Of a DNA stretch of 64,000 bases, positions 32,872 to 47,602 are shown in pieces (position 1 is the first letter of the stretch; every line of letters starts with the position of its first letter). The position numbers and the translations under genes were made by a program. A model generated the notes under the pieces. It did no database searches. It was not told the origin of the DNA and saw nothing but the letters and a program-made list of their open reading frames with translations. Source of the stretch: Propionibacteriaceae bacterium (GTDB lineage: Bacteria; Actinomycetota; Actinomycetes; Propionibacteriales; Propionibacteriaceae); NCBI GenBank assembly GCA_031271975.1, contig JAISUR010000037.1, forward strand, positions 434,001 through 498,000, given 5' to 3'.

Positions 32872-35812
32872 CGCCGCCACCTCCCGGGCAACCCGCCGCA
32901 AAGGCGCACGAGCGGCAGTTGGGGCATGGCGTCGCGGGGAATTCTCCGGCGCGCAGAATGTCCGCGGCCCGAGCGAGACGGTGCTCCACCCAAGTCGGCT
33001 TCGTCTCGCCCGGTTCCAGGTGCGGGCGGGACCGCAGGGATTCCTGCCGCAGTTGTTTGGGCAGCACGTCTCCGGCGCGCAGGAATACCAACTCCGCCCC
33101 GGCCGAAGCCTCGCCCGCCCCCAAGGCGCCCGCTTCGACGGCCAACTGGTACACACCCAGTTGCTCCAACCCGGCCACGCTCGCCTGGCTCGGCAAACGG
33201 GTGGCCGACTTGAAATCCACTATCCGCAGGCCTTGCGACGTGCGTTCCAACCGGTCCACCGTGCCGTGGATGGCAAGCTCGATTCCATCCGCCCGATAGC
33301 CGAACTCGAATGTCTGCTCCACTCCCACCGCCTCTGGCCGCGCGGCCTCCCAGTTGCGGAACCGCTCCAACGCGGCGACTGCTTCATCGCGATGGGCAGC
33401 GGCTTGCCAGGCAATTTCGTAGGGCAACTGGGCGATCGCCTCCGTCACCGCTTGCGGGGCGTCGGCGGCGGCCAACTCGCCGCGCTCCAGGTCCGCGACC
33501 AGCCGGTGGATCATGGACCCGAGCTCCGTCAGCTCGCCGGAAGGCGGATCGGCCCTCGCCTCGCGCGACAGAAAGAAGCGGCGCGGGCACTCCAGCAGCA
33601 TGCCGAGCTGGCTGGGGCTCAGCCGGGCATGCGAGCGCGGATAGCCCGCCCCGGAAAGCTCGCGCACCCCCCACCAGTTCGCCGGATCAGCTGATCGCAC
33701 GCCCAACTCCCCGAGCAACCGGGCCGACGCCTGCCGGGCTCCCAGGCTCAGCTCGGGCGACTCGGCGCGCGCGCGCAGCCCCGCGACCAGCCCGGCCACG
33801 TCCACTGGAAGCTTGGGCTGCGGAGGATGGACGGCTTCCAAGCCCAGTTCCGCGATGAAGCGCGACGGTTCGCAGCTCTCGCCTGACGCCCCGGCCACGG
33901 AAAGCAGCACCAACCTGCGCGCCGCCGTAGCGCAGGCCGTGTAGAACAGGCGGCGCTCCGCGGCCAGCCCCTCTCGGGCATCAAGCTTCGGCACTACCTC
34001 GTCGCTGCGCAGTTGCGCGGGGTCGATCAGCGCGGCGGCGGGCGCCACCGCCGGCCAAGCACCCTCCTGGACGCCGGCGATGATCACGAAGGGCCACTGC
34101 CTGCCCTTGGCCTGATGCACTGACAGCACTTCCACACCCGGCTGCCCGGGGCGCGCCTCGCGCTCGGTGTCGGCGGCGATCGATTGGGCCGCGATTTCAG
34201 CCAGCAGCATGTGCACCCCGGCCGCTCCCGGACGCCGCTCGCCCGCTCCGGCGAAAGTGAAGAACACCCGCAGGATTTCCAGTTCGCGGCGCGCCTGGCT
34301 CGCAGTGAGTTCGGCCGCCCAGCCGCTGTCTTCATACAACGCCCAGGCCACCTCGTCTGCCGCCTTGCCGTCAGCGAGCGCCGCCCGGGCCGCGGCGATC
34401 AGCTCCAAGAACTCCTGGAGCTTTCCGACATCGCCGGCTTGCCCCAGCCACGCCGTGTCACTCAGGGCCAGCACCAGGCGCTGCCCAGGCCGCAAAGCGG
34501 GCTGCCCCACCACAGCCTGATGGGCGGTCAGCAGCTCATGCAAGCCCAAGGCATCAAGACCGGCCAAGGGGGAACGCAGCAGCAACTCCGCCTGTTCGGC
34601 GTCGACTTCGCCATCGGCCGCCAGCAGCAGCGCGGCCAGCAACACCCGCACCGGCCAAGCCTCTGCCAACGGCACGCTCGCGGCCATCGCGCCGACCGGG
34701 ATGCCCGCCCTGGCCAACGCCCGCAGGATCGGCCCAACCGCGCGCTTGGCCGAGCGGACCAGGACGGCCATATCCGCAAACCCGAGCCCTTCCAACTCGG
34801 CTTGGCGCAGCAGCTCGGCGATGACCTTGGCCTGCTGGGCCTCCGACCCCACCAGGTAGGCCGCGGCGCTGCCCCCGGCGGCCGCGCGCACCGCGCAACC
34901 GCGCCCGGCACCGGCCACGACTGGCACGGGCAGCCGGGACCGCACTCCGGACAGATCCACCGACCGATAACTCTGCCGCAACTCGAACACGGTGCCGCCA
35001 AACAGCCCGGGGAACACTTGGACGGCATGCGGGTGCGCGCCGCGGAACGCGGTGATCACGGTGTTCGGATCGCCCACCGCCAAAGTTTTCGCCCCCAGGG
35101 CCGCTATCAACCCCAGGCCGGAAGGGTCCAACTCCGGATAGTCGTCCACCACGACGGCGCTGACTTCTCCGAACCTCTCCGGCAAGAGGATGCGGGCCCG
35201 ATGCACGAGCTCCGCGTAGTCGATGACCTCCTCGGCGTCCAGCACGTCCAGATACTCCGCGAAGAACCCGCCGATCGCCTCCCACGCCGGCCCGGCGCCT
35301 TTGCCCAGGCGCGTCAGATCCTCCGGATCGAGGCCCAGCTGCCGGGCCCGGGCCAACACTCCGCGCACCTGCCGCGCAAAGCCGCCGGTCGTGATGGCCG
35401 CCTCCAGACCCCGCCAGCGGCCGGGATTTCCGGCCAACAGCTCCCGCACCCGGAATTCCTGTTCCGGAGCTGTCAGCAGCCGCGGATACGAATCCCCGAA
35501 CCGCTCCAGGATGAGCCGCGCGAACGCGTGCACAGTCGTCACCGCGGGCTGCCACGCCCGCCCGGCCATGCCAGCGGTTATCAGATTCCGCAAATGGGAG
35601 GCCGCCTGCCGGGTGCGCGCGAAAACCAACGGCCGCCCCCCGGCCAACACTTCGGCCCGGGCGGCGTGCACGGCCAGCACCGTCTTGCCCGTCCCCGGCC
35701 CGCCCAAGGCCAGCACCGGACCGCGCCAGGCGGCCAACACCGCCGCCTGCTCCGCGTTCAACTCCGGCAACGCGGGCAGCGCGGCGGGCCAAACCAACCG
35801 GCGCGTCATCAT
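32864..35812 (-). CDS. adnA: AdnA helicase-nuclease subunit
   Basis: A 982-residue UvrD-like protein with a C-terminal nuclease. Walker A GGPGTGKT is at 37-44. Motif II reads VVVDDYPELD, with Asp in place of the catalytic Glu. GDPNTVITAFRGAH, ELRQSYRS and VLSVHQAKGRQWPFVI follow. The nuclease has GTVDRLE and IVDFKSA. LLECPRRFF and the C-terminal CPNCRSCAFAAGC are placed like the four-cysteine Fe-S cluster of AddB-type nucleases. The start is taken as the ATG at 35812 (MMTRRLVWPA); a TTG at 35893 is possible. A TTGTCC...TTGGAT element ends 6 bases upstream, favouring a leaderless start at 35812. It heads the adnA-adnB-nudC unit. Confidence 0.9.
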   Translation of the reverse strand: MMTRRLVWPAALPALPELNAEQAAVLAAWRGPVLALGGPGTGKTVLAVHAARAEVLAGGRPLVFARTRQAASHLRNLITAGMAGRAWQPAVTTVHAFARLILERFGDSYPRLLTAPEQEFRVRELLAGNPGRWRGLEAAITTGGFARQVRGVLARARQLGLDPEDLTRLGKGAGPAWEAIGGFFAEYLDVLDAEEVIDYAELVHRARILLPERFGEVSAVVVDDYPELDPSGLGLIAALGAKTLAVGDPNTVITAFRGAHPHAVQVFPGLFGGTVFELRQSYRSVDLSGVRSRLPVPVVAGAGRGCAVRAAAGGSAAAYLVGSEAQQAKVIAELLRQAELEGLGFADMAVLVRSAKRAVGPILRALARAGIPVGAMAASVPLAEAWPVRVLLAALLLAADGEVDAEQAELLLRSPLAGLDALGLHELLTAHQAVVGQPALRPGQRLVLALSDTAWLGQAGDVGKLQEFLELIAAARAALADGKAADEVAWALYEDSGWAAELTASQARRELEILRVFFTFAGAGERRPGAAGVHMLLAEIAAQSIAADTEREARPGQPGVEVLSVHQAKGRQWPFVIIAGVQEGAWPAVAPAAALIDPAQLRSDEVVPKLDAREGLAAERRLFYTACATAARRLVLLSVAGASGESCEPSRFIAELGLEAVHPPQPKLPVDVAGLVAGLRARAESPELSLGARQASARLLGELGVRSADPANWWGVRELSGAGYPRSHARLSPSQLGMLLECPRRFFLSREARADPPSGELTELGSMIHRLVADLERGELAAADAPQAVTEAIAQLPYEIAWQAAAHRDEAVAALERFRNWEAARPEAVGVEQTFEFGYRADGIELAIHGTVDRLERTSQGLRIVDFKSATRLPSQASVAGLEQLGVYQLAVEAGALGAGEASAGAELVFLRAGDVLPKQLRQESLRSRPHLEPGETKPTWVEHRLARAADILRAGEFPATPCPNCRSCAFAAGCPGGGGDD

Positions 35813-35818
35813 GCGACC

Positions 35819-35841
35819 ATCCAACCACCCGGGTAGGACAA
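35819..35841 (-). promoter_or_regulatory. Leaderless, PafBC/RecA-NDp-like promoter of adnA
   Basis: On the minus strand TTGTCCTAC, 8 bases, then TTGGAT, ending 6 bases before the ATG at 35812. The TTGTC half is perfect against the recalled consensus, while the -10 box is weaker (TTGGAT for TAnnnT). Confidence 0.42.
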
Positions 35842-35911
35842 AACGCGGCGGCGAACCGGACGCGCCGCCCTCGGGCACCGTGCCAGGCAGCAAGCACAGG
35901 CGTGAAATTAG

Positions 35912-35940
35912 TTGGATGCTGGCTCACAGCCCGATAATCT
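35912..35940 (+). promoter_or_regulatory. Sigma-70-type promoter of the TelA-FHA operon
   Basis: TTGGAT, 17 bases, then TAATCT. The start would be near 35947, leaving a 28-base leader that includes GAGAGGA before the ATG at 35975. No further clear promoter is seen until the end of the operon. Confidence 0.55.
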
Positions 35941-35974
35941 GTGTCCAGCGCATTTCCGTCTCCGAGAGGACATC

Positions 35975-37234
35975 ATGACAACGCCTGAACCAACGGCTGA
36001 ACCAACGGCTGCACCGGCGGCTGAACCAACGGCGGCACCGGCGGCTGCCGCCACCGCCCCCCTGCTCACCTTGACCGCTCCTGAGCCGCCGCAAGTCGTC
36101 GTCGAGACGCAGGCTCCGGCGATGGCTCCCCAAGTGGAGCCGGAGAAGGTCCCCGTGTTGGACGCGAAGGTGGACGAATTCCTCACCGCGCTGAACGCCG
36201 CCGAGGCCAACTCGCCGCAGTTTTCCGCGCAAGCGGACGCCGTCCGCTCCATGGGCGATGTGGACATCCGCAAGGCCGCGGAGACGTCGAACCGCCTGCT
36301 GCAGACGCCCGTGCGGGCAGTCCAGACCGGCGGCTTGTCCGAAGGTTCCAAAGTCGGCAAGACGCTCATCGAGTTGCGCCGCACGGTCGAGGATCTTGAT
36401 CCGGCCGGCGCCCGCGGGGTAAAGAAGTTCTTGGGCATCTTCCCCAAAGGCAACCAGATCACCGACTACTTCCGCCGCTACCAAAGCTCGCAGGACCAGT
36501 TGAACGCGATCCTGCACTCGCTGCGTTCCGGCCAGGACGAGCTGGCAAAGGACAACGCCTCGCTGACCATGGAGAAGCAAAACCTGTGGGACGTCATGGG
36601 CCGCCTCAACCAGTACGTGTACATCGCCGAGAAGTTGGACGAAAAACTGGCGGCGCAAATCGCCGAAATCCAGTTGAGCGATCCGGAGAAAGCCAAGACG
36701 CTCAACCAGGATGTCCTCTTCTATGTGCGCCAGAAGCACCAGGACTTGCTCACCCAATTGGCCGTTTCCATCCAGTCGTATCTGGCCATCGACATCATCA
36801 TCAAGAACAACGTCGAGTTGATGAAGGGCGTCGACCGTGCCTCCACGACGACAGTCTCCGCCCTGCGTACGGCCGTCATCGTCGCCCAGGCCCTCGGCAA
36901 CCAGAAACTGGTGCTGGATCAGATCACGGCGCTGAACACGACGACCTCGTCCATGATCCAGCGCACCTCGGAAATGCTGAAAGAGAACTCGGCGTCAATC
37001 CAAGAGCAGGCGGCCTCCTCGACAATCGGCTTGGAGCAGTTGCAGCGGGCGTTCGCGAACATCTACGAGACCATGGACACCATCGACACGTTCAAGCTGC
37101 AGGCGCTGGATTCCATGAGCGCCACCATCGGCACCCTGGAGGTCGAAGTAGCCAAGTCCCGCGCCTACCTGGATCGCGTGGCCAAGGCCGATCAGGCCGG
37201 CTCGGGCCAGCCGCAGATCAGCATCGACCAGTAG
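35975..37234 (+). CDS. TelA-family (toxic anion resistance) protein
   Basis: A 419-residue TelA/PF05816 protein. The first 45 residues are a low-complexity EPTA/APA repeat. The helical TelA core follows: GKTLIELRRTVEDLDPAGA, FLGIFPKGNQITDYFRRYQS, ILHSLRSGQDELAKDNASL, VFYVRQ-like segments and SIQSYLAIDIIIKNNVELMKGVDRAS. TelA proteins were named for tellurite resistance in plasmids but are widespread in stress operons with VWA and TerD proteins; the mechanism is unknown. GAGAGGA lies 4 bases before the ATG. First gene of the nine-gene operon, and only 2 bases from the next start. Here it is more likely a structural or scaffold component than a metal-resistance gene. Confidence 0.85.
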   Translation: MTTPEPTAEPTAAPAAEPTAAPAAAATAPLLTLTAPEPPQVVVETQAPAMAPQVEPEKVPVLDAKVDEFLTALNAAEANSPQFSAQADAVRSMGDVDIRKAAETSNRLLQTPVRAVQTGGLSEGSKVGKTLIELRRTVEDLDPAGARGVKKFLGIFPKGNQITDYFRRYQSSQDQLNAILHSLRSGQDELAKDNASLTMEKQNLWDVMGRLNQYVYIAEKLDEKLAAQIAEIQLSDPEKAKTLNQDVLFYVRQKHQDLLTQLAVSIQSYLAIDIIIKNNVELMKGVDRASTTTVSALRTAVIVAQALGNQKLVLDQITALNTTTSSMIQRTSEMLKENSASIQEQAASSTIGLEQLQRAFANIYETMDTIDTFKLQALDSMSATIGTLEVEVAKSRAYLDRVAKADQAGSGQPQISIDQ

Positions 37235-37236
37235 CG

Positions 37237-37743
37237 ATGGGGTTCTTCGACTGGTTGCGCGGCGGTTCAAAGCCGGAACCGGAGCCGGAACCGCTCCCCG
37301 CCGCGCCGACCGCCAAGGACATCTCCGCGTCGCTCGTGGAGGTGGAGGAATTGGTGGCCAACCCGGACGTTCCCGGCGTGGTCCGGGCCCGCACTTTGCG
37401 GGTCACCGACTTGGTGCGCAAAGCGTTGCCGCGCTTGGAGAACCTTGGATTGGGCTCTTACGACGCCTACTCGGTGATAGCGACCGCCACGGACTATCTG
37501 CCGGAAGCTGTCGGCGCCTATCTGCGCCTGCCGCGCGACTGGGCTGACACGAGGCCGGTGCAAGGCGGTAAGACGTCCCTGCTGCTGCTGATCGACCAGT
37601 TGGATCTGCTGGGCACGACGATGGACAAAATCTACGACGCCGCCAACCGGACGGACGCGCAGGCCTTGATCGCCCATGGACAATTCCTGCAAGAGAAGTT
37701 CGGGCATGCCCCGGCGGTGACAGATATGACGGTGACGCAATGA
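37237..37743 (+). CDS. Uncharacterised 168-residue protein of the TelA-FHA operon
   Basis: Not recognised as a named family. The N-terminus MGFFDWLRGG is a short amphipathic, Trp/Phe-containing segment like those that bind membranes peripherally. A Pro/Glu repeat (PEPEPEPLP) follows. The rest is predicted helical (ISASLVEVEELVANPDVPGV, YSVIATATDYLPEAVGAYL, LLLLIDQLDLLGTTMDKIY). It starts 2 bases after telA and overlaps the AAA gene by 4 bases (ATGA), so it is translated with them and is probably a partner of TelA or of the ATPase. Confidence 0.8.
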   Translation: MGFFDWLRGGSKPEPEPEPLPAAPTAKDISASLVEVEELVANPDVPGVVRARTLRVTDLVRKALPRLENLGLGSYDAYSVIATATDYLPEAVGAYLRLPRDWADTRPVQGGKTSLLLLIDQLDLLGTTMDKIYDAANRTDAQALIAHGQFLQEKFGHAPAVTDMTVTQ

Positions 37744-39317
37744 ACGCGCTGGCGCAGGCCCTGGACGCGTTGGAAGCCGCCGCGCGCGACTTGGGAGTCG
37801 ACGCGGCGGAGTCACGGCTGGAAGCGGAGGCGCTCTCAGCGGCCGTCGCCGAGTCGAATCCGGGCGCCTACATCGATTGGTGCGCCGCATTCGGCAAAGA
37901 ACCCAGCGCCGCCGAGTTCACCGCCGCCGCCTCCCGCGGCCGCAAATACCGCGCCGCGCCGACCCCTCTGGCCGGTTTCGCCGCGCTGCGCGGCTCGGAG
38001 CAGGGCAAGACGTTTGTGCAGGCCCTCGTCGACGTGGCCACCTCGGCTGCGATCCTGGGGCAACCCGGTCCGATCAGCCTGGGAGCGGCCCAAGCGGCGG
38101 CTTCCGCCCAGTTGCAGGTCCCAGCCGCGCCGCTGAGCCGCAACACGCCGCCGGCCGATTTCGCGCAGCAGGCTCCGGCGATCATGGCCGACGTGCTGGC
38201 CCGCTTGACGGCTTCGCAGCAATCGCTGCTGGATTTGCAGGCCAGCCCGTTCACGCCCGGGGCCATCCCCGGGCTGGGAGTCCCGGTGGTTCCACAAGCA
38301 ACCAGTCCGGCGCCACCTGGCGAGCCCGCAGCCGCGCCGCAAGGCCAAGCCGAGGCCAAAGCCGAAGCCGCCGCCGCGGCCGAGGCCAAAGAGCCGGAAA
38401 AGACCGTTGACGAATGGCTTGCCGAGTTGGACGCGCTGGTGGGCCTGCAGAAGGTGAAGGCGGAGATCCGCCGGCAGACGGCAATCTTGCGCGTGGACGC
38501 GTTGCGCACCGAGGCCGGGCTGAAGAGTCCCACGATCACGCGGCACCTCATCTTCACCGGCAATCCGGGCACCGGCAAGACGACGGTGGCCCGCATGGTC
38601 GCCGGCATCTACAAGGCGATCGGCCTGCTGTCCAAGGGGCAGCTCGTGGAAGTGGACCGCTCCGAACTCGTCGCCGGATATCTGGGCCAAACGGCGATGA
38701 AGACCGCCGAAGTTGTCGAAAAGGCGCTGGGCGGCGTGCTCTTCATAGACGAGGCCTATTCGCTCGCCGGCGACCAGTACGGCGAAGAGTCCATCACCAC
38801 GTTGGTCAAGGAGATGGAAGACCACCGCGACGACCTCGTCATCATCGTGGCCGGGTATCCCGCGCCGATGGCGGTGTTCATCGGCGAGAATCCCGGTCTG
38901 GCAAGCCGTTTCCGCACCGAGATTTGGTTCCCGGATTACACCGACCAAGAGCTGGAGGCCATGCTCAAGTCGATGGTGGCCGCCGGCGACTATGACTTGG
39001 GAGAAGGCGTCCTGGAGGAGTTCCACCGGCAGTTGGGGCAACAGATGCGCGACGAGACGTTCGGCAACGGCCGCTATGTCCGCAACCTGTTCGAAGCCGC
39101 CATTGGCAAGCACGCCTGGCGGTTGCGCGATGTGGCTGAGCCGACTCTGGAAGAGTTGCGCACGCTGCGCGGCGAGGACTTCGCCCCGGATCCGGAACCA
39201 GCGGTCGATTGGCCGCCCGCGGCCGCCCTCACACCTGACTCGGACACTCCGGACGATGCTGCAGAGCCCACGCCAGACGATGCGCCTGACGGCGCAGACG
39301 ACGGGGCCGCCCAGTGA
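37740..39317 (+). CDS. AAA+ ATPase of the CbxX/CfqX (CbbX) type
   Basis: A 525-residue protein with an N-terminal helical region (about 1-130), an Ala/Pro/Gln-rich linker and a CbbX-type AAA+ module: LDALVGLQKVKAEIRR, Walker A GNPGTGKT (274-281), VEVDRSELVAGYLGQTA, Walker B VLFIDEAYSL (from 333), sensor-1 VIIVAGY, LASRFRTEIWFPDYT and sensor-2 GNGRYVRNLFEAA. The same fold occurs in Rubisco activase CbbX and in EccA of type VII secretion, which remodel partner proteins. The C-terminal 50 residues are acidic. No ESX genes are nearby. It overlaps both neighbours by 4 bases. Confidence 0.9.
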   Translation: MNALAQALDALEAAARDLGVDAAESRLEAEALSAAVAESNPGAYIDWCAAFGKEPSAAEFTAAASRGRKYRAAPTPLAGFAALRGSEQGKTFVQALVDVATSAAILGQPGPISLGAAQAAASAQLQVPAAPLSRNTPPADFAQQAPAIMADVLARLTASQQSLLDLQASPFTPGAIPGLGVPVVPQATSPAPPGEPAAAPQGQAEAKAEAAAAAEAKEPEKTVDEWLAELDALVGLQKVKAEIRRQTAILRVDALRTEAGLKSPTITRHLIFTGNPGTGKTTVARMVAGIYKAIGLLSKGQLVEVDRSELVAGYLGQTAMKTAEVVEKALGGVLFIDEAYSLAGDQYGEESITTLVKEMEDHRDDLVIIVAGYPAPMAVFIGENPGLASRFRTEIWFPDYTDQELEAMLKSMVAAGDYDLGEGVLEEFHRQLGQQMRDETFGNGRYVRNLFEAAIGKHAWRLRDVAEPTLEELRTLRGEDFAPDPEPAVDWPPAAALTPDSDTPDDAAEPTPDDAPDGADDGAAQ

Positions 39318-40543
39318 CAACCGCGTCCCCCACCAAGTCCAAACCGGCTGCCGCGAACACCGGCCAGGCGATCCGCGCCCTGGCGACTACCACTTCAAAA
39401 GCCGCCTCCCGCGCCGCCAAGAAGAACCCGAAGCGGACCTATCGCCGCTGGCAGGTCCTGGTGGCGGGCGCTCTGGTCGCGATGGGCATCTCCATCTGGG
39501 GCTTCGCCGGACGTGCCGCGTCGCTGGCGTCCGAAACCGTCGCTGACTATGCCGCCGCCACTCGGGTGGAGACCATCGGCGGAGATCTGGTGCAGGCGCA
39601 GATCAAGGCCACGCGGGGGGCCCCGGACCAGTCGGCCAACAGCGGTTACGGCGACAGCCTGACGCGAGCGGACGAAGCCGTCACAAAGCTGACCGCGGCG
39701 GCCACTGACGGCGACACCTGGCCGACGGAGTTGAACTCGACGCTGTCCGTCTACGAGCGCACCTTGGCCATCGCCGCCAACAAGCAAAGCGACGAGGTCG
39801 TGCCGGCGCTGGAAACGGCCAGCTACCACCTCGACTCGGTGGTGCGCATGACGTCCGAACGCTCCGAGTCACTGCAATACACCGCCGGGCGATACTCTTC
39901 CCTCATCAACGGCCTGCTGGTCGCGGCGGGCGTGATCGGCTGGCTGGTCGTGGGGGCGTTGGTCGGGGCATCGATTTGGGCGGCCATCGCCTCGCACCGC
40001 GTCATCAACCCCGGACTGGCGGTATCCCTGATCGCCGCCATCACGCTGGCTTCCTGGGCCAGCGCCGGGGCAGCGACTTGGGCGTCGGCCGAGGCCAGCC
40101 GGAGCACGGGCCATGTCGTGGCGCAGGCGCGAACCAATTTGTCCCGTGGCTTGCTGACCGACTACCAAGTGCTGCGCAGCACGCCGCTGTATCCGGACGA
40201 GACTCTGCTGCAGGCGGACAACTATTTCGACCAATCGATCTGGGTCGCTCCCCGCGAGTCCCAGGCAACCGACTTGATGGACAGCCACCAGGCGACGGCG
40301 GACGCCCTCACATCGGGCAACTGGGACGCCGCCGCTGCCGAGTTGAGTGTGCTCGACGAGTATGTTGACGTACTTGTCAAAGAGCTGGACGCCGACATCG
40401 AGGCCTCGCTGGCGCCCAACTCCTACGCGGCCGCATTCGTGAGTTCTATGAACTCGCTGGCGGCGGTGGCTGTCCTGGTCGCCATCGCCGGAGCGGCAGC
40501 GGGCGCCTACGGCCTGCAACGGCGGCTGAGGGATTTCCTATGA
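39314..40543 (+). CDS. Four-TM membrane protein of the TelA-FHA operon
   Basis: A 409-residue protein not matched to a named family. A basic cytoplasmic N-terminus (AAKKNPKRTYRRW) precedes TM1 (about 47-67). An extracytoplasmic helical region follows (about 70-190), then TM2 and TM3 (GLLVAAGVIGWLVVGALVGA and GLAVSLIAAITLASWASAGA), a second extracytoplasmic region (about 255-370) and TM4 near the C-terminus (AAVAVLVAIAGAAAGAYGL). The two outside loops flanked by helices resemble sensory modules of receptors, but no output domain is fused. It is probably the membrane anchor or sensor of the operon. Start is GTG at 39314, overlapping the AAA stop (GTGA). Confidence 0.82.
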   Translation: MTTASPTKSKPAAANTGQAIRALATTTSKAASRAAKKNPKRTYRRWQVLVAGALVAMGISIWGFAGRAASLASETVADYAAATRVETIGGDLVQAQIKATRGAPDQSANSGYGDSLTRADEAVTKLTAAATDGDTWPTELNSTLSVYERTLAIAANKQSDEVVPALETASYHLDSVVRMTSERSESLQYTAGRYSSLINGLLVAAGVIGWLVVGALVGASIWAAIASHRVINPGLAVSLIAAITLASWASAGAATWASAEASRSTGHVVAQARTNLSRGLLTDYQVLRSTPLYPDETLLQADNYFDQSIWVAPRESQATDLMDSHQATADALTSGNWDAAAAELSVLDEYVDVLVKELDADIEASLAPNSYAAAFVSSMNSLAAVAVLVAIAGAAAGAYGLQRRLRDFL

Positions 40544-41634
40544 GCCGCGCGATGCCCACCCCGCCGGGAGCCCTCGGCCAGGCAGCCCAAGCCAGCCAGA
40601 TGCTGGCTTACCTCGGCGAACTCGACGCTTGGGTCAACGAGCGCCGCAGCGAGTTGGATTCGCTCGACCAAGAGATCATCGCCACAAAGCGCCAGGAGTT
40701 GACCGGCGACATCACGCTCGCCATGACGGTCTGGCAGTCGATCAAGTCCAAGCACAACGAAATCCTCCAGGTGTGGGATTCCGGGCGCGTGGGGAAGGTC
40801 GAGTTGGAGAAGCTGAGTTCGCTGATCTTTGGCCGGTTGGACAACGTGCAGCAAGCCATGGCCGTGTCGCTGCCCGAGGCCGGCCGCCTCAACGACGCGC
40901 TGGTCGCCTCGCTGCGCGCGAAACTGAACACCGATCCGGGCGTGGAAAACCAATTGGCCCGCCTGCGTTCCCTGCGCGCGAGCCTGGAGCGCATCCGCGA
41001 CCAGTTGGCCTTGGAGCCGCAGGCGCTGCAGCCCGCGGGCCAGGCGAAACTCAGCCAGCTGGGAGCCCGCATCGACGAGGCGGAAGCCAAACGCGGCCGG
41101 GGCGGCGATATCGGCGGCCTGCTCGGCCCGTTGGAGAATGACGCCGCCCGTTTCGAGCGCGACCTGATCGTGGGAGCGGCGCAGCGCCGCGACGCCGTCA
41201 GCCTGCTGGATTCCACGCGGACGCTGCGTGACGAAGTCGAAGCCATGCAGGTCACGTTGCGCGAGCTGCGGGAACACGCCATGGCGGAAATCTCACCGGT
41301 CCCGGACGCCCCCGCCGGTGCCCTGGACGATCTGCCAAAGCTCCCCAACACCGCCGACCAGCTGCGCCAATACGCCGCCGAGCTGGGCAAGCTGCGGCCG
41401 GCCTTGGAGTCCTACCAAACCACGCTCACGCAATCGCTCAGCCAGCCGGAACAGGCTCGCAAATTGCTCGACGGCCTGGTCGGTAAGGCCAAGGCCTTGG
41501 GTGCCGACACCCAACTGCAGCCGGTGGCCCAGGCCGCGGTAGCGCTGATAGACCGCAAGCCGACGCTGATCGCGGCGCTGCGCCACGCCGTGGCCGCGTA
41601 TGCCAGCGCGGTGGACGCCTTGGAGAAGAAATGA
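40540..41634 (+). CDS. Coiled-coil protein of the TelA-FHA operon
   Basis: A 364-residue soluble, almost wholly helical protein with heptad-like stretches: LDAWVNERRSELDSLDQEII, LARLRSLRASLERIRDQLAL, DSTRTLRDEVEAMQVTLREL, then SYQTTLTQSLSQPEQARKLL. No enzyme motif or membrane segment is visible. It is linked by ATGA overlaps to the membrane protein upstream and the kinase downstream, so a scaffold or adaptor role is likely. Family not recognised. Confidence 0.8.
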   Translation: MSRAMPTPPGALGQAAQASQMLAYLGELDAWVNERRSELDSLDQEIIATKRQELTGDITLAMTVWQSIKSKHNEILQVWDSGRVGKVELEKLSSLIFGRLDNVQQAMAVSLPEAGRLNDALVASLRAKLNTDPGVENQLARLRSLRASLERIRDQLALEPQALQPAGQAKLSQLGARIDEAEAKRGRGGDIGGLLGPLENDAARFERDLIVGAAQRRDAVSLLDSTRTLRDEVEAMQVTLRELREHAMAEISPVPDAPAGALDDLPKLPNTADQLRQYAAELGKLRPALESYQTTLTQSLSQPEQARKLLDGLVGKAKALGADTQLQPVAQAAVALIDRKPTLIAALRHAVAAYASAVDALEKK

Positions 41635-43943
41635 AGTGTCTGCAACCGGGCTGCAAGGGCCGCATAGTCGACGGCTATTGCGACATCTGCGGCATGCCGC
41701 CGGCCGCGGGCGCTGCCTTGGCGCCATCCAAGCCGGCCGCCCAGCCGGCCCCCTCCGGCAAGGCTTCCGGACGCTGCCCGATGCCAGGATGTAACGGCCG
41801 CATCATCGACGGGTACTGCGATGTGTGCGGGTCTCCACCCGCCACCGCCCGTCCTGCGGCGGCCTCCGCCCCGGACGCCGCCCCGACGAAGGCTTCCGCG
41901 GCGTTGGGTTCGATCGCGCTGGGTTCGACGCTGGCGACCAGCTTCGGCGGGCGCGTCGAACGCCGCCGCCGCCGGGCCAAGCAGGCCAGCCGCATGGGGA
42001 TTGGGTTGACGACCGTGCCGTCAGCGCCCGCTATCGATCCCGCGAAGGCCGTGATGGCCGATCCGCAGGTCCCCGAAGACAAGCGCGTGTGCCCCAAGTG
42101 CGGCAGCAAGGTGGGCCAGTCGTCCGAGGCGGATGCGGGCCGTTCGGACGGGTTCTGCCCGAAGTGCGGCGCCGAGTACTCCTTCTCGGTGAAGCTGAAG
42201 CCGGGCCTGGTCATCAACCGCCAATACAAGGTGGAGGGCGTGTTGGCCCACGGCGGGCAGGGCTGGATCTATCTGGCCCGGGACATGCAGGTGTCCGGCC
42301 GCTGGGTGGTGCTGAAGGGGCTGCTGAACGCCGGGGACGAGGACGCGCTGGCCGCCGCGATCAACGAACGGCAGTACTTGGCCCGCGTCGGCATCCACTC
42401 CCAGATTGTCGAGATCTACAATTTCATCGAGAACTTCCGCGGCGCCGACTACATAGTCATGGAATACGTCGGCGGCCGGTCGCTGAAGCAACTGCTGAAA
42501 CAGCGCATGGAGTCCAATGGCGGAGTCTACGACCCGCTCCCGCCGGATCAGGCCTTGGCGTTTCTCATCGAGATCCTGCCCGCGTTGAGCTACTTGCACG
42601 ACACCGGCCTGCTCTATTGCGATTTCAAGCCGGACAACGTGATCCAAGTGGGCGACACGCTGCGGCTGATCGACTTGGGCGGCGTGCGGCCCATCGACGA
42701 CGATGAGTCGCCGATTTTCGGAACTCGTGGGTACCAGGCGCCGGAAGTGGCCACCGACGGCGCGTCGATAGCGTCCGACATCTTCACCGTGGGCCGCACC
42801 TTGATGGTGCTTTGCGCGAACGTGCCGGGCTACCAATCCGGGTACGAATTCAGCATTCCGCCCGCATCCGACATGCCCGCCTTCGCCGCCAACGATTCCT
42901 TGTACCGGCTGTTGGAACGCTGCTGCGCCATAGACCCGAACGACCGCTTCACCTCGATTGAAGAAGTGCGCCGCCAGATGATGGGCGTGCTGCGGGAAGT
43001 GGTCAGCGCGACCCGCCCGCAATCCAGCACATCGCAGGCCTCCCCCAACTTCTTGCCGCCCACGGGTTTGGGCGAATCCCCGGTGTGGGAACTGCTGCCG
43101 GAGTTGCGCGTGGACGAAGACGATCCGGCGGCGGGCTGGCTGGCCCAGATCTCCACCACCGATCCGAAGGCCCAGTTGCGGGCCCTCAGCAAGCCGCCGC
43201 AGGAGACCACGCAAGTGTTGTTGGCCAGGGCGCGGGCCGCCATCAGCGCGGACATCCCCAAGACGGTGGCGGATTGCGTGCAAAAGTTGCAGGCGGCCGA
43301 CCCATGGGAGTGGCGGGCCGCCTGGTTGACCGGGTTGAGCGCCCTGAAGGCGGGAAATGCCAAGGCCTTCAAGGACGCCCAGGCCGCGTTCAACACCGTG
43401 TACGGATACTTGCCCGGCGAACTGGCCCCCAAGCTCGCGCTCGGCCTGGCATGCGAGTTGGGTGGCGAACTCGACATCGCCGAGCGGATGTACCGCATTT
43501 GCGTGCTGAGCGACGCGGCGTATGTCACGCCGGCGGCTTTCGGCCTGGCGCGGGTCTGCGCCGCCCGGAAGGACGTGGCGGGGATGTCGAAGGCGCTGTC
43601 GCTGGTGCCGGCCACTTCCCGCGCTTATCCCGAAGCCATCCGCACCCGTGTCCACTACCTCGTCGCCCTGAACCAAGACCCGGCCCGGCTGGAAGATGTC
43701 TTCAATGCCGTCGAAGTGGCTCCGCTGGACGCCTACGAGAAGGCCACCTACCAGGAACGGCTGCTGCAATCGGCGCTGAATCAGCCCAATGCGTCGCTGG
43801 GGAAGATCGCGCCAACGAAGACCGCCGTGCGGACCCGCCTGGAACAGGTGTTGCGGGCCCGCGCCGCCGCCACCAACGACCCCGCCGAACGCGCCCAGTG
43901 CATCGAGCGAGCCAACAAGCTACGTCCTTGGAGCGTGATATGA
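41631..43943 (+). CDS. PknG-like serine/threonine protein kinase with zinc ribbons and TPR
   Basis: A 770-residue kinase built like PknG. Two near-identical ribbons, CxxxxC..IVDGYCDICG and CxxxxC..IIDGYCDVCG (Cys3/8/17/20 and 49/54/63/66), are followed by a rubredoxin-like CPKCG...CPKCG pair (Cys154/157/176/179). The kinase domain has HGGQG, Lys229, LLYCDFKPDNV (Asp331, Asn336) and IDLGG (Asp348). HRD is thus YCD and DFG is DLG, as in the PknG lineage. The C-terminal part (from about 500) is TPR-like. PknG regulates central metabolism through FHA proteins; this version sits with a phosphatase and an FHA reader instead. Overlaps on both sides are 4 bases. Confidence 0.92.
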   Translation: MKCLQPGCKGRIVDGYCDICGMPPAAGAALAPSKPAAQPAPSGKASGRCPMPGCNGRIIDGYCDVCGSPPATARPAAASAPDAAPTKASAALGSIALGSTLATSFGGRVERRRRRAKQASRMGIGLTTVPSAPAIDPAKAVMADPQVPEDKRVCPKCGSKVGQSSEADAGRSDGFCPKCGAEYSFSVKLKPGLVINRQYKVEGVLAHGGQGWIYLARDMQVSGRWVVLKGLLNAGDEDALAAAINERQYLARVGIHSQIVEIYNFIENFRGADYIVMEYVGGRSLKQLLKQRMESNGGVYDPLPPDQALAFLIEILPALSYLHDTGLLYCDFKPDNVIQVGDTLRLIDLGGVRPIDDDESPIFGTRGYQAPEVATDGASIASDIFTVGRTLMVLCANVPGYQSGYEFSIPPASDMPAFAANDSLYRLLERCCAIDPNDRFTSIEEVRRQMMGVLREVVSATRPQSSTSQASPNFLPPTGLGESPVWELLPELRVDEDDPAAGWLAQISTTDPKAQLRALSKPPQETTQVLLARARAAISADIPKTVADCVQKLQAADPWEWRAAWLTGLSALKAGNAKAFKDAQAAFNTVYGYLPGELAPKLALGLACELGGELDIAERMYRICVLSDAAYVTPAAFGLARVCAARKDVAGMSKALSLVPATSRAYPEAIRTRVHYLVALNQDPARLEDVFNAVEVAPLDAYEKATYQERLLQSALNQPNASLGKIAPTKTAVRTRLEQVLRARAAATNDPAERAQCIERANKLRPWSVI

Positions 43944-45046
43944 GCTCAGAATTTCCACAGCAGTTGCCCACGCCCCTGCAGCCGTCTGAAACGCCGCAGC
44001 CGCCCGAGCCCCTGCAACCGCCGGAACTGCCGCAGCCGGCGGCGTTGCCCGACGATGTGACCACGGTGCTGCGGCCCACCCGCGACGACGCCACGACCGT
44101 GCTGCGCAAGGCCCGCGTGGACGCGCCTGTCCCCCATGCCGCGCCAGCGGCCGAATTGCCCGCCGCCGCGGAACTTGACACCGAAACGGTTGTCATCCGC
44201 GGCGCCTCCCCCACCCTGGCGCCGCTGTGCCCGGCGTGTGGTGGGCGCATCGACGCCGACGGCTATTGCCAGGTGTGCGGCCAGAAGGCGCCGAGCCGCC
44301 GCGACCATCTCGAAGGCGCGCCGTCGCCCCAGGTGGCGTTCGTGTCCGACCGCGGCAAGGTGCATTACCGCAACGAAGACGCCGCGTCGGTCTACCAGGA
44401 CGACACACGAACCGTCCTCGTGGTCTGCGACGGCGTTTCGACCAGCACCGATTCCGATGTGGCCGCGATCGCCGGCGCGGACCGCGCCTGCCAGTATCTG
44501 GCCACGGCACCGGCCAACACCGAATCCCTTTCCCGCGCGGTGTACGAGGCCAACCGGGCAGTGATCGCCAACGCCGACCTGAACGCCTCCGCGGCCGCCG
44601 CGGCGACGATCTCCGCCGCCCTGATCGTGGGCCGCAAGCTGTGGTTCGCCCACCTGGGCGACTCCCGTATTTACTGGGTGTCCGACTCCGGCTCCCAGAT
44701 GCTCACCACCGACGACTCGCTCGCGCAAGAACTCATCGCGCAAGGGCTGAGCCGCGAGGAGGCAGAAGCATCCCAGGGCGCCCACGCGATAACGGCGTGG
44801 CTGGGCCCAGACTCCGAAGATACCGATCCGGAAACCGGCGAGTTCGACCTGGGCGACGGCTGGGTCGTGGTCTGCTCGGACGGCCTGTGGAACTACGCGT
44901 CTTCGGCGACGCAGTTGTCCCAGGTACTGCGCGAGTCGGAGCGGGAGACCGCTCTGGAGACGGCCCGCGCCATGGTGGTTTGGGCCAGTGAACAAGGCGG
45001 CGTGGACAACATCTCAGTCGCCCTGGCGAGAGTGACGGTAGGCTAG
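43940..45046 (+). CDS. PP2C-type protein phosphatase with TTVLR motifs and zinc ribbon
   Basis: A 368-residue protein. A Pro/Gln-rich start leads to two copies of D-D-(V/A)-T-T-V-L-R (38-45 and 49-56) and a related TETVVIR (81-87). A zinc ribbon CPACGGRIDADGYCQVCG spans 97-114. The PPM phosphatase domain has the metal-site motifs RNEDAASV, VVCDGVSTST, GDSRIYWV, VVCSDGLWNY and GVDNISVAL, so it should be active. It would oppose the kinase encoded immediately upstream. The Thr motifs look like phospho-acceptor or FHA-docking sites, by analogy with FHA-binding pThr peptides. Start is the ATG at 43940, overlapping the kinase stop. Confidence 0.9.
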   Translation: MSSEFPQQLPTPLQPSETPQPPEPLQPPELPQPAALPDDVTTVLRPTRDDATTVLRKARVDAPVPHAAPAAELPAAAELDTETVVIRGASPTLAPLCPACGGRIDADGYCQVCGQKAPSRRDHLEGAPSPQVAFVSDRGKVHYRNEDAASVYQDDTRTVLVVCDGVSTSTDSDVAAIAGADRACQYLATAPANTESLSRAVYEANRAVIANADLNASAAAAATISAALIVGRKLWFAHLGDSRIYWVSDSGSQMLTTDDSLAQELIAQGLSREEAEASQGAHAITAWLGPDSEDTDPETGEFDLGDGWVVVCSDGLWNYASSATQLSQVLRESERETALETARAMVVWASEQGGVDNISVALARVTVG

Positions 45047-45053
45047 AACTGAA

Positions 45054-46334
45054 ATGGCTCAATTCACAGCAACTGTTTACCAGAACGAGTACCTGCCCGA
45101 CGGCGGCACTGACGTCAACGCGATCGTGACGATCAGTTGCGCCGGAGCCGGTGTTGCCGGGCGCACCGGAGTGGGGGACGCCGGCGAGATCGTCATCGTG
45201 GACACCTCCGGGTCCATGGGCATGGTCAATATGGAGGCCGCCAAGCAGGCCGCCAAGGTCGCGCTCGACAACATCGTCGACGGCACCTACTTCGCCGTCA
45301 TCGCGGGCAACCACAAGGCCTATCTGGCGTATCCGATGGTCCAAACCGGCGCGGGCATGGTGCGGATGGACGCCCGGACGCGCACGGCGGCCAAGCAGTC
45401 CATCTCGATGTTCCGCGCGGACGGCGGCACGGCCATGGGCACTTGGCTGAACCTGGCCAAGTCGCTGTTCGACTCGGTCGGCATCCTGGCCAACAAACAC
45501 GTCATTCTGCTCACCGACGGCGAGAACCACAACGAGACCAACGAGCAGTTGCAGGCCGCGATCCGCAACTGCCAGGGCGCGTTCCAAGCCGACTGCCGCG
45601 GCGTCGGCGTCGACTGGAAGGTGCCCGAGATCCGCACGATCGCCCAAGCCTTGCTCGGCACGGTGGACCTGATCCCGAACACGGCGGCGATGAGCGACGT
45701 ATTCGCGCAGTTGATGAGCCAGTCGATGGGGCGCGGCGTGGCGAACGCCGACTTGCGAGTGTGGATACCGCAGGGTGCGCAGGTATTGTTCATCCGCCAG
45801 GTCTCCCCCACGGTCGAAGAGCTGACCAACCGCGGGGCTCCTTTGAACGCGTTGACCATGAGTTATCCGACCGGAGCCTGGGGTGACGAGGAGCGCGACT
45901 ACCACGTCGCGATCCGGCTGCCGGCAAAGTCGGTCGGCCAGGAGCAGTTGGCCGCGCGGGTGCAGCTCGGCGTCGGCTCCGACATCCTCACCCAGGGCCT
46001 CGTCAAGGCGAAATGGTCCTCGGACACGAATCTCACCGCCCAGATCAACCCGGAGGTCGCCCACTACACCGGGCAGGCAGAACTTGCCGTCGCCATCCAG
46101 GAAGGCCTGCTGGCCAAGTCCGCGGGAGACGATCGCACAGCGACCACGAAGCTCGGCCGCGCCGTGCAACTCGCCGCCGAAACTGGCAACGCCGAAGCGA
46201 CGTCGCGGCTGCGCAAGGTCGTCGACATCACCGACGCCGCCACCGGCACGGTGCGGCTGAAGAAGAGCGTGGCCAAGGCCGACGAGATGGCCCTGGACAC
46301 AGCATCCACCAAGACCACCCGGATTCGAGGTTGA
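45054..46334 (+). CDS. VWA-domain protein with phospho-acceptor-like tail
   Basis: A 426-residue cytoplasmic VWA protein. The MIDAS begins IVIVDTSGSMG (Asp50, Ser52, Ser54), with GGTAMG and LLTDGENH completing the metal site. A beta-rich middle (about 225-330) and helical C-terminus follow. The protein ends in STKTTRIRG, a conserved-looking Thr/Arg tail similar to the TTVLR motifs of the phosphatase. VWA domains of this kind bind partners through a metal-bridged contact and often accompany AAA+ ATPases and TelA. It starts 7 bases after the phosphatase and ends 1 base before the FHA gene. Confidence 0.88.
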   Translation: MAQFTATVYQNEYLPDGGTDVNAIVTISCAGAGVAGRTGVGDAGEIVIVDTSGSMGMVNMEAAKQAAKVALDNIVDGTYFAVIAGNHKAYLAYPMVQTGAGMVRMDARTRTAAKQSISMFRADGGTAMGTWLNLAKSLFDSVGILANKHVILLTDGENHNETNEQLQAAIRNCQGAFQADCRGVGVDWKVPEIRTIAQALLGTVDLIPNTAAMSDVFAQLMSQSMGRGVANADLRVWIPQGAQVLFIRQVSPTVEELTNRGAPLNALTMSYPTGAWGDEERDYHVAIRLPAKSVGQEQLAARVQLGVGSDILTQGLVKAKWSSDTNLTAQINPEVAHYTGQAELAVAIQEGLLAKSAGDDRTATTKLGRAVQLAAETGNAEATSRLRKVVDITDAATGTVRLKKSVAKADEMALDTASTKTTRIRG

Positions 46335-46335
46335 A

Positions 46336-47349
46336 ATGGCTGACTGCCCGAACGGACACCAAACCCTGGCGAGCGATTTCTGCGATATCTGCGGAGCGCC
46401 GGTGACCGCCGGTATCCCCGCCCAAGAAGCGCCCAGCCGTGTCGCCTGTCCCAACTGCGGCCACTCCAATGTGGCCCTCGCGCTGTTCTGCGAGGCTTGC
46501 GGCTACAGCTTCGTCCAGGGCGCGGCGCCAGCGGCCGCACCCGCGTGGGAAACCGACCGGCCAAAGACCGCCGCCGAGGAAGCCGCCGAGTTGGCTCAGA
46601 CCATCAAGGAGTTCCAAGCCCAGGCGGCGACTCCAGTGCCAAGCCCGGCGCCAATTGCGTCGCCGGGTCCAGCGTCGGCCGTGCCCCAACCCATAGCGAC
46701 CGACGTCATCCCCAACGTGGAGCCGCTGCCGACCCCGGACGGGATTCCGGCGCCCGCGCCCGTGTCGTGGCAGCCCGTAAGCACGCCGGTGCCGCCGCCG
46801 CAAGCCCCTGAAGCTCCAGTCGAGGTTCAGGTCGCTCCAGAACAGTCCCAGCCAGCCGCCGCCCCCGCCGAAGCGCCGCAACCGGCGGCCTTCAGTTGGG
46901 AACAGCCCGAGCAGCAAGCTCCGCCCCCGGTCCGCGTGGAATGGGTGGCCGAACTGTGGATCGATCCGGACTGGTACGCGCTACAGGGATCGCCGGATCC
47001 GCTGCCCTCGGCGGGCCTGCCTGATATCGTTCCCTTGGTCAAAGAGGTCAACCTCATTGGGCGGGTGTCGCTTTCCAAGGCGACGTTCCCCGAGGTTGAC
47101 TGCGATTTGGACACCGGCTGCAGCCGCCGTCACGCTCAGTTGACGACCGACTGGACACGCTGGTGGATTGAAGACTTGGGCTCGGCCAACGGCACGTTCG
47201 TGGGCCCAGCCAACGGCCCGTTGCCTTCGATGCCGATCCCCCGCGGAAAGGTGGAGTTGCTGCCCGACCAGCGCGTCTACCTGGGCGCGTGGACACGCAT
47301 CGTGGTGCGCCGGGCCACGGATGATGAAATCGCTGCCTATGCCGGGTGA
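46336..47349 (+). CDS. Double zinc-ribbon/FHA-domain protein
   Basis: A 337-residue protein. Two N-terminal ribbon halves (CPNG...DFCDICG and CPNCG...LFCEACG) are followed by a long Pro/Ala-rich linker (about 85-210) and a C-terminal FHA domain: LIGRVS (Arg243), SRRH (Ser263, His266) and GSANGT (Asn285). These are the phosphothreonine-contacting residues, so it should read pThr marks, probably those placed by the kinase of the same operon. Last gene of the operon; 28 bases separate it from DUF3107, so some read-through is possible. Confidence 0.9.
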   Translation: MADCPNGHQTLASDFCDICGAPVTAGIPAQEAPSRVACPNCGHSNVALALFCEACGYSFVQGAAPAAAPAWETDRPKTAAEEAAELAQTIKEFQAQAATPVPSPAPIASPGPASAVPQPIATDVIPNVEPLPTPDGIPAPAPVSWQPVSTPVPPPQAPEAPVEVQVAPEQSQPAAAPAEAPQPAAFSWEQPEQQAPPPVRVEWVAELWIDPDWYALQGSPDPLPSAGLPDIVPLVKEVNLIGRVSLSKATFPEVDCDLDTGCSRRHAQLTTDWTRWWIEDLGSANGTFVGPANGPLPSMPIPRGKVELLPDQRVYLGAWTRIVVRRATDDEIAAYAG

Positions 47350-47377
47350 CCGGCGACAGGCGGAAAAGGAAGAATAA

Positions 47378-47602
47378 GTGGAAATCAAAGTTGGCGTCCA
47401 GCACGTTGGACGCGAGTTGACGCTGGAAACAAACGAAACGGCTGACGATTTGGAGAAGCGCTTCGCGCAGGCGCTTGCCTCAGACGCCGTGCTCACCCTC
47501 ACAGATGAGAACGGCCGCAAAGTCATGCTGCCGGCGGCCAAGGTCGCCTACATCGACCTCGGCCAGGAACACGCCCGCCGCGTAGGGTTTGGTGCGGTGT
47601 GA
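47378..47602 (+). CDS. DUF3107 small protein (TB9.4-like)
   Basis: A 74-residue protein of DUF3107, a family of unknown function conserved in actinomycetes (TB9.4/Rv3208A in M. tuberculosis). Landmarks are MEIKVGVQHVGRELTLET, LTLTDENGRKVMLPAAKVAY and the tail RRVGFGAV. GTG at 47378 has AAAGGA 7 bases upstream. It overlaps the DEAD-box helicase by 4 bases; in mycobacteria the same family also lies close to rhlE. This suggests a link to RNA metabolism, but no function is proven. Confidence 0.88.
   Translation: MEIKVGVQHVGRELTLETNETADDLEKRFAQALASDAVLTLTDENGRKVMLPAAKVAYIDLGQEHARRVGFGAV

Follow-up and report, generated by a model that had tools for sequence, protein, structure and literature searches.

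A nine-gene operon of a Propionibacteriaceae bacterium as a probable expanded pknG–glnX operon with a proposed second VWA–FHA arm

Nine open reading frames lie on the plus strand between positions 35975 and 47349 of the window, the 64-kb stretch of Propionibacteriaceae DNA analyzed here. Each of them is open, with a GC3 of 0.78 to 0.88, and the spacings between them are, in order, +2, −4, −4, −4, −4, −4, +7, and +1 bases. Pfam matches assigned TelA, AAA+ with AAA_lid_6, PknG, PP2C, VWA with VWA_3_C, and FHA families, while g2, the four-TM protein, and the coiled-coil protein had no match at E = 0.01. These results bear out the tightly packed nine-gene operon described in an earlier note on this DNA (4-base overlaps, gaps of at most 7). 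The PP2C and g2 frames used in the Pfam scan were longer and opened upstream of the true starts; the corrected coordinates are 43940 for the PP2C start and 37237 to 37743 for g2. Catalytic or binding motifs are intact in the kinase, PP2C, the VWA MIDAS, FHA, and the AAA+ protein. The “one clear promoter” of the same note did not hold up: a scan for the sigma-70 consensus, from which actinobacterial promoters often depart, gave 0 sites in 35600 to 47900, against an average of 1.0 in shuffles. No Rfam family was detected in the window at gathering thresholds.

The operon begins with a TelA family protein of 419 aa (35975..37234; PF05816, E = 1.2 × 10−92), the sole TelA match in the genome. It is followed by g2 (37237..37743), a small conserved protein of 168 aa without a named family, which shares 50 to 72% identity with 44 relatives; it had no NCBIfam match, and the longer frame that contains it (36586 to 37743) had no Pfam match. 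The third gene (37740..39317; PF00004, AAA_lid_6) encodes a CbbX/SpoVK/EccA-like AAA+ ATPase that is extended at its N terminus by about 220 residues. The protein matched CbbX (3syk) at E = 1.4 × 10−53 and fell under the cut-offs of TIGR02881, TIGR03922, and TIGR02880. Our guess is that TelA, g2, and the AAA+ protein form a remodeling or membrane-linked add-on. A GlnX-like four-TM sensor (39314..40543) comes next, and directly 5′ of the kinase gene lies a coiled-coil (spectrin-like), all-helical protein of 364 aa (40540..41634), which we guess is likely to be a scaffold.

The kinase is PknG (41631..43943; PF16919, PF00069, PF16918), in which a pair of N-terminal zinc ribbons recognized in the sequence (41637..41831; ribbons at 41637 to 41693 and 41775 to 41831) precedes the rubredoxin, kinase, and TPR domains. 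The PP2C phosphatase (43940..45046; PF13672, matched in the longer frame) has an N-terminal low-complexity linker and a zinc ribbon at 44228 to 44281, and it matched the Stp1-type model NF033484 at E = 1.1 × 10−37, under cut-off. Its linker contains two TTVLR repeats (44060..44107), which are candidate pThr sites by their sequence. In PP2C linkers, threonine with I, L, or V at +3 was enriched at z = 3.7 to 3.9, falling to 2.1 under stricter redundancy removal, and control patterns were equally strong (Ser +5, z = 4.0; FHA linker +4, z = 3.8); the same pThr-motif test on the PknG linker found no enrichment. The VWA protein with its VWA_3_C domain (45054..46334; PF18571, PF13768, and a 4FX5 match) ends in a tail whose Thr421 codon (46314..46316) stands out by conservation. 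The last gene (46336..47349; PF00498 and zinc-ribbon Pfams) encodes an FHA reader with two zinc ribbons (46345 to 46395 and 46447 to 46503), a Pro/Ala linker, and a C-terminal FHA domain.

The nine genes are conserved together beyond chance. The earlier note had set beforehand, as a possible refutation, the finding that they are rarely together; among the relatives with sufficient flanking DNA, 49 of 51 have all nine on a single strand, so its proposal of a co-conserved phosphothreonine signaling unit with writer, eraser, reader, and membrane link stands. In 54 of the order's 56 genomes with PknG, TelA lies 6.8 to 9.3 kb away from it, and a strong TelA match is present in all 56, as against 1 of the 61 genomes lacking PknG. 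Of 394 actinomycete genomes, 97 encode VWA_3_C proteins, and PknG is found in 95 of these 97. The domain is absent from 46 of 141 PknG genomes, and the second arm is thus dispensable for PknG. One family member (locus L083) runs from TelA to PP2C, and VWA and FHA were not found in the 7.9 kb downstream. The smallest form, GlnX–GlnH–PknG, is that of mycobacterial and corynebacterial operons; PP2C, VWA, and FHA are added in most other actinobacterial families sampled, and TelA, g2, and the CbbX-like AAA+ protein are further added in Propionibacteriales and some others.

Based on sequence comparisons, we assign the operon to an enlarged PknG–GlnX–GarA amino-acid signaling pathway, rather than a Ter-type stress system, because the four-TM protein and the kinase are GlnX and a true PknG, respectively, and GarA/OdhI and a hybrid OdhA are present in the genome. 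A GlnX profile built from GlnX–GlnH–PknG operons matched the four-TM protein at E = 1.1 × 10−21 (reversed control, 0.086), and the NCBIfam GlnX model NF058618 matched it at E = 4.7 × 10−9, under its curated cut-off. Predicted transmembrane segments start near residues 48, 201, 235, and 373 and would leave two extracytoplasmic domains. The kinase has the features of PknG membership, namely the kinase and TPR domains and the rubredoxin. Elsewhere in the genome, a GarA ortholog with the ETT motif adjoins FtsR (the OdhI model scored GarA at 130 bits, under its cut-off of 200, and FtsR over its own), and the hybrid 2-oxoglutarate dehydrogenase OdhA has E2 and E1 domains. As described in the available parts of PMC6069109, PMC8546545, and PMC9769921, an extracytoplasmic amino-acid signal passes from GlnX to the TPR domain of PknG, which phosphorylates GarA at its ETT motif and thereby releases OdhA. 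The suggestion that the output is unknown and the system undescribed therefore gives way to a place in this published PknG–GlnX–GlnH–GarA pathway. A GlnH lipoprotein gene was not found in the window, and other binding proteins of the genome reached at best 118 bits, compared with 245 to 479 in GlnH-containing loci; GlnH is present in 38 of the 49 relatives with the full nine-gene set.

We consider it probable that the nine genes make up an expanded pknG–glnX operon in which the GarA pathway is joined by a second, ArnB–ArnA-like VWA–FHA arm. Because there is no linked GlnH, GlnX presumably acts as a sensor either unaided or together with a different binding protein. PknG would then phosphorylate T421 of the VWA tail, and perhaps its neighbors; the FHA protein, already tethered by a zinc ribbon, would bind the phosphorylated VWA protein tightly through its FHA domain, by analogy with the Arn proteins, and PP2C would reverse the modification. 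PknG and PP2C may use their own ribbons to attach to the same VWA platform. The VWA–FHA arm would thus be a second output alongside GarA. Text searches of non-subscription papers gave no description of the expanded operon with this arm; in the one paper that mentions all of PknG, VWA, and FHA, 12 of the 17 matching passages were covered, and these do not describe this operon.

The most probable of the alternatives is that the classical PknG–GlnX–GarA metabolic switch works by itself, with PP2C, VWA, and FHA as accessory regulators of PknG (a local phosphatase, a scaffold) and no separate output. Its appeal is that GarA and OdhA are both encoded in the genome and that the mycobacterial-type operons, made up of GlnX, GlnH, and PknG, lack PP2C, VWA, and FHA (loci L115 to L117). 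However, there are stretches with a PP2C–VWA–FHA triad and without a PknG profile match (loci L158 to L160), and so the triad may function independently of PknG; the VWA tail threonine is also invariant. We regard this alternative as unlikely. The earlier note had instead inferred, against the background of Ter-type stress operons with TelA, a membrane-linked machine whose assembly threonine phosphorylation switches and whose output is unknown; as a TelA/Ter-type stress machine, we find this quite improbable. TelA and g2 are indeed well conserved, with a strong TelA match in all 56 of the order's PknG genomes. Ter-type stress operons hold TerB/C/D-type proteins together with TelA and VWA, but none of the nine proteins matched a TerB/C/D-type family in Pfam, the membrane protein is GlnX, and in 13 of 35 broad loci, TelA, g2, and the AAA+ gene are missing and the kinase–PP2C–VWA–FHA set is present. 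Less probable again is a system for secretion or for the assembly of a membrane complex, with an EccA/CbbX-like motor switched by PknG: the AAA+ protein resembles ESX EccA (TIGR03922, E = 7 × 10−67; 9lur, E = 9.5 × 10−52), but its score is higher for SpoVK and comparable for CbbX, and it stays under every equivalog cut-off, and is accompanied by no Pfam secretion component over curated cut-off among the nine proteins. Finally, an anti-phage defense island is hardly credible. The kinase domain is matched by PADLOC models, chiefly those of PD-T4-6 and MADS kinases, but such matches among the nine proteins are confined to kinase, AAA, and PP2C domains (model matches, not system rules), and the operon holds together across an order and is accompanied by central-metabolism partners.

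The proposed second arm draws on two sets of observations, the first concerning the VWA and FHA proteins. VWA is a near full-length homolog of 4FX5, a VWA protein of Catenulispora acidiphila (caci_2163), with the STKT tail included (E = 1.1 × 10−109), and the available part of PMC6509490 equates the 4FX5 fold with vWA2/ArnE, an ArnB paralog. Judged by this match, the VWA protein is a tripartite VWA/beta-sandwich/helix-bundle protein with an ArnB-like architecture. Thr421 is present in 26 of 26 non-redundant sequences and in 93 of 94 aligned ones, the remaining one having a gap. The FHA protein has the zinc-ribbon plus FHA layout of ArnA, which is the best PDB match of the whole protein. Two other lines of evidence were rejected: ArnB homology by sequence alone is non-specific, as the VWA profile matched ArnB at E = 4.5 × 10−11, under two unrelated VWA proteins, and for the isolated FHA domain the plant-type FHA chains 1mzk and 1uht outscore ArnA. 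The second set concerns the zinc ribbons, which are carried by the kinase, phosphatase, and FHA families and by none of the other six. The ribbon pattern was found in 98 of 98 PP2C and 83 of 87 FHA sequences, and in 0 of the VWA, TelA, coiled-coil, AAA+, GlnX, and g2 (0/66) sequences. In the broad set, the kinase ribbon tracks the presence of VWA (Fisher P = 1.5 × 10−4), an association that a post hoc check by hand strengthened; four loci have a kinase ribbon without VWA at the locus.

By analogy, these features might form an actinobacterial counterpart of ArnA–ArnB, a possibility we put forward tentatively and rate a little below an even chance. A VWA platform would dock kinase, phosphatase, and FHA reader by zinc ribbons, the invariant C-terminal threonine would act as the switch, GlnX would gain a second output, and mycobacteria and corynebacteria would have lost both the arm and the kinase ribbons. 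The available parts of PMC7472852 and PMC12852372 describe ArnA and ArnB as controlled by kinase and phosphatase; those of PMC12852372 add that ArnB-like architectures lie mostly outside multi-phosphorylation processes and that no individual ArnB site is essential.

Nearly all the PknG literature we found concerns mycobacteria and corynebacteria, which have the operon in a reduced, three-gene form. A circuit known from that form becomes open to testing in a fuller version. Should the larger operon be usual elsewhere, PknG has an overlooked dedicated phosphatase, reader, and second substrate, and the bacterial PknG and archaeal Arn nutrient switches, which have been studied separately, have a common layout. 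The idea lends itself to direct tests in harmless actinomycetes, as it involves a single invariant threonine, a single FHA domain, and a single phosphatase, and lineages without GlnH offer a natural test of the signal that GlnX senses.

Three known systems can be set beside this operon. With TelA/Ter-type stress clusters it has a TelA family protein in common, but here TelA accompanies PknG and not TerB/C/D-type proteins. With the PknG–GlnX–GlnH–GarA/OdhI pathway known from Corynebacterium and Mycobacterium it has in common the PknG domain order (in the mycobacterial form), the GlnX topology, GarA with its ETT motif, and the hybrid OdhA. It differs in lacking GlnH, in the zinc ribbons before the rubredoxin domain (a domain which corynebacterial PknG lacks), and in gaining PP2C, VWA, FHA, the coiled-coil protein, TelA, g2, and the AAA+ protein. 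With Sulfolobus ArnA–ArnB, as described in the available parts of PMC6509490, PMC7472852, and PMC12852372, it has in common a VWA/beta-sandwich/helix-bundle protein with C-terminal threonines, an adjacent zinc-ribbon–FHA protein, a Hanks kinase, a phosphatase, and, presumably, a nutrient input. According to the same parts, the archaeal phosphatase is PP2A, whereas this operon has PP2C, and ArnC has OB and TPR-like parts preceding its kinase domain, whereas PknG has a C-terminal TPR. The Arn output in Sulfolobus is the archaellum; here, all components lie within one bacterial operon, and the conserved threonine follows the VWA_3_C domain.

The operon comprises nine tightly packed ORFs on the plus strand (35975–47349), as the earlier note had described: five neighbouring pairs overlap by 4 bases, and the other three are separated by 2, 7 and 1 bases. 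Their GC3 is 0.78–0.88, and the catalytic motifs of the kinase, PP2C, VWA, FHA and AAA+ proteins are intact. Pfam assigned the first product to TelA (PF05816, E = 1.2e-92), the AAA+ gene to AAA+ plus AAA_lid_6, the kinase to PknG rubredoxin, kinase and TPR regions, and the last three genes to PP2C, VWA_3 with VWA_3_C, and FHA with zinc ribbons. Pfam returned no family for g2 (a small conserved 168-aa protein, gene 2), the membrane protein or the all-helical coiled-coil protein upstream of PknG (CC). The clear promoter claimed earlier was not recovered, as a sigma-70 consensus scan found none. Divergent from TelA lie two overlapping UvrD-helicase/PD-(D/E)XK nuclease genes (29968–35893, minus strand), which we take to be AdnAB-like; an AdnA-like match was present in 14 of 62 loci with more than 2 kb upstream of TelA. 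Some 4 kb downstream of the operon, on the minus strand, is a further Ser/Thr kinase gene (51336–53210) that includes a DUF5050 region.

Based on profile comparison, the membrane protein of the operon is GlnX. Four TM segments are predicted, beginning at residues 48, 201, 235 and 373, which is the topology given for GlnX in the available parts of PMC6069109 and PMC9769921. A profile of the window protein and 17 relatives from operons without GlnH aligned with a profile of three proteins from GlnX–GlnH–PknG operons at an hhalign E of 1.1e-21 over 333 columns, spanning most of the window protein's length, with the circular element that the relatives' proteins were first gathered by their four-TM pattern. 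Profiles of four other groups matched GlnX at E 1.3e-13 to 4.9e-47, and controls gave E 0.3 (TelA), 0.021 (CC) and 0.017 to 0.11 (three reversed profiles). NCBIfam independently gave the protein the GlnX name, at E 4.7e-9 and under the model cut-off. GlnX (39314–40543) is by far the fastest-changing operon member. Among 80 relatives, tblastn detected it in just three (L003, L013, L016); the VWA matches in the same relatives had 59–83% identity, and most TelA matches 66–82%.

GlnX, PknG, GarA and OdhA, members of the known pathway, can all be identified in this genome by sequence comparison. A 160-aa FHA protein carrying the ETT motif had OdhI as its best match (E 4.2e-38; its 130 bits fall short of the curated cut-off, 200), and its gene sits between FtsR and a frame that we ourselves read as gcvH-like. 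A 1442-aa protein combines acyltransferase and E1 parts in the way that actinobacterial OdhA does. No PknG-type GlnH sensor was linked to the window operon, and binding proteins elsewhere in the genome scored at most 118 bits with the GlnH profile, which gives 245–479 bits in loci possessing GlnH. GlnH was also absent from 11 of 49 complete nine-gene relatives in a first set of loci, from one of seven in a second, and from a stretch of the window's own genus (L082).

The nine genes are co-conserved among close relatives. From the best 80 of at least 570 confirmed kinase relatives, 51 had enough flank (upstream ≥7 kb, downstream ≥5.5 kb), and all but two of these (L059, L060) hold the nine genes on one strand. 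Since this first set represents the closest kin, we drew a second, broad set of 40 stretches, hand-picked from genomes of many families, 35 with enough flank; the sets overlap slightly (L022 and L084 seem to be one stretch, as do L049 and L090). Seven of the 35 had all nine genes. Counted by eye, a further 13 (L088, L093, L094, L096, L098, L100, L103, L107, L108, L110, L112, L119, L120) had the kinase, PP2C, VWA and FHA genes on one strand without TelA–g2–AAA+, five had GlnX, GlnH and PknG alone (L101, L102, L115, L116, L117), and the remaining ten held other subsets. One of these ten, L083, carries TelA through PP2C, with VWA and FHA absent from the stretch. In L011, L015 and L067, ~3.5–4 kb of additional DNA separates PP2C from VWA.

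Across 117 genomes of the order Propionibacteriales, PknG was found in 56 and TelA in 61. A strong TelA (at least 292 bits) accompanies PknG in all 56 genomes and lies on the PknG contig, 6.8–9.3 kb away, in 54 (exceptions G765, G700); a single PknG-free genome (G762) also has a strong TelA, and in four others without PknG the TelA is weak. The association, with weak TelA scored as absent, gave a Fisher p of 5e-33, which is overstated given the non-independence of genomes. Because both PknG and TelA vary in presence within one genus (g240), the pattern argues for their joint gain or loss. Among 394 genomes of the class, VWA_3_C occurs in 97, 95 of which have PknG, and at least 82 of 111 VWA_3_C places have a listed PknG no more than 8 kb away, with some contigs ending nearby. 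TelA occurs in 74 of the 394. Seventeen chosen TelA places away from PknG had a g2 homolog in ten cases, AAA+ in two and neither in five; therefore, TelA–g2–AAA+ appears to be a module of its own that has become attached to the operon in certain lineages. In L148 and L154, whose genomes are not among the PknG matches listed, TelA is directly followed by an AAA+ gene of the same family. In L143, L145 and L151, a TelA not next to PknG adjoins a predicted lipoprotein frame that, in our reading, resembles a binding protein.

T421, in the VWA C-terminal tail, is invariant in 26 non-redundant VWA sequences, drawn from 94 with any that have X near the C-terminus left out; all 94 have T there except for one gap. 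The only other invariant threonines, T126 and T154, are in or beside what we read as the MIDAS motif. T421 follows the VWA_3_C match, which covers residues 372–418, and stands five residues before the C-terminus; 19 of the 26 sequences have V, I or L at +3. PP2C–VWA–FHA sets also occur away from listed PknG kinases (L158–L164), and six of these seven VWA copies keep T421; the seventh (L164), from a genome without a PknG_TPR match, is a short fragment with Ser. A weak PknG-like kinase adjoins L161, and the kinase may have been cut off at L162 and L163 because both are at or near contig ends.

We compared the VWA–FHA pair with the Sulfolobus nutrient switch ArnA/ArnB. The VWA protein matched PDB 4FX5 over residues 4–424 of 426 (E 1.1e-109), and the accessible text of PMC6509490 describes a tripartite VWA, beta-sandwich and helix-bundle structure common to 4FX5 and the ArnB paralog vWA2 (rmsd 3.75 Å over 264 atoms). 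Against ArnB, the VWA family profile gave E 4.5e-11 over the VWA domain part, ranked under two unrelated VWA proteins. The top PDB matches of the whole FHA protein were ArnA chains, covering the zinc-finger and FHA regions in a match that takes in the proline-rich linker; for the FHA domain alone, ArnA came third after two plant-type FHA chains, and GarA ranked lower. According to the available portions of PMC7472852 and PMC12852372, the ArnB C-terminal bundle is phosphorylated by ArnC and then bound by the ArnA FHA domain, PP2A reverses this phosphorylation in a nutrient-dependent system, and the unphosphorylated pair is held through the ArnA zinc finger. In the accessible text, the Arn authors mention the Catenulispora protein (4FX5) and name neither PknG nor its operon, and "PknG" has 0 occurrences in that of PMC6509490.

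A loose zinc-ribbon pattern was found in 98/98 PP2C and 83/87 FHA proteins, and in none of 93 VWA, 64 TelA, 98 CC, 74 AAA+, 100 GlnX and 66 g2 proteins. In the 38 broad-set loci with 5.5 kb downstream, VWA was present for 21 of 22 kinases with an N-terminal ribbon versus 6 of 16 without (p = 1.5e-4); by eye and post hoc, five of those six (L109, L110, L111, L112, L120) have an N-terminal CxxC ribbon-like motif missed by the pattern. Six of the ten loci with neither have the rubredoxin pair only, and the other four no CxxC in the part examined, with possible truncation or a missed kinase start. In the close set, 59 of 63 loci have both features, leaving the test powerless. The pattern, a correlation only, fits docking of zinc ribbons on VWA, as of ArnA on ArnB.

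In published work on relatives (PMC6069109, PMC8546545, PMC9769921), the signal runs from GlnX through PknG and GarA to OdhA, and the same order would apply here. In a second arm that we propose, PknG would phosphorylate the VWA tail, the FHA protein would read this mark and PP2C would erase it, with the enzymes docked through their zinc ribbons and CC possibly acting as a scaffold. The roles of TelA, g2 and AAA+ are the weakest part of this mechanism; our guess is that a CbbX-like remodeller may act on the VWA–FHA assembly or GlnX. As far as the open-access literature searched shows, this proposed second arm is undescribed. The operon singled out in the earlier note is real, but rather than an undescribed system, it is better explained as a variant of the known GlnX–PknG–GarA–OdhA pathway.
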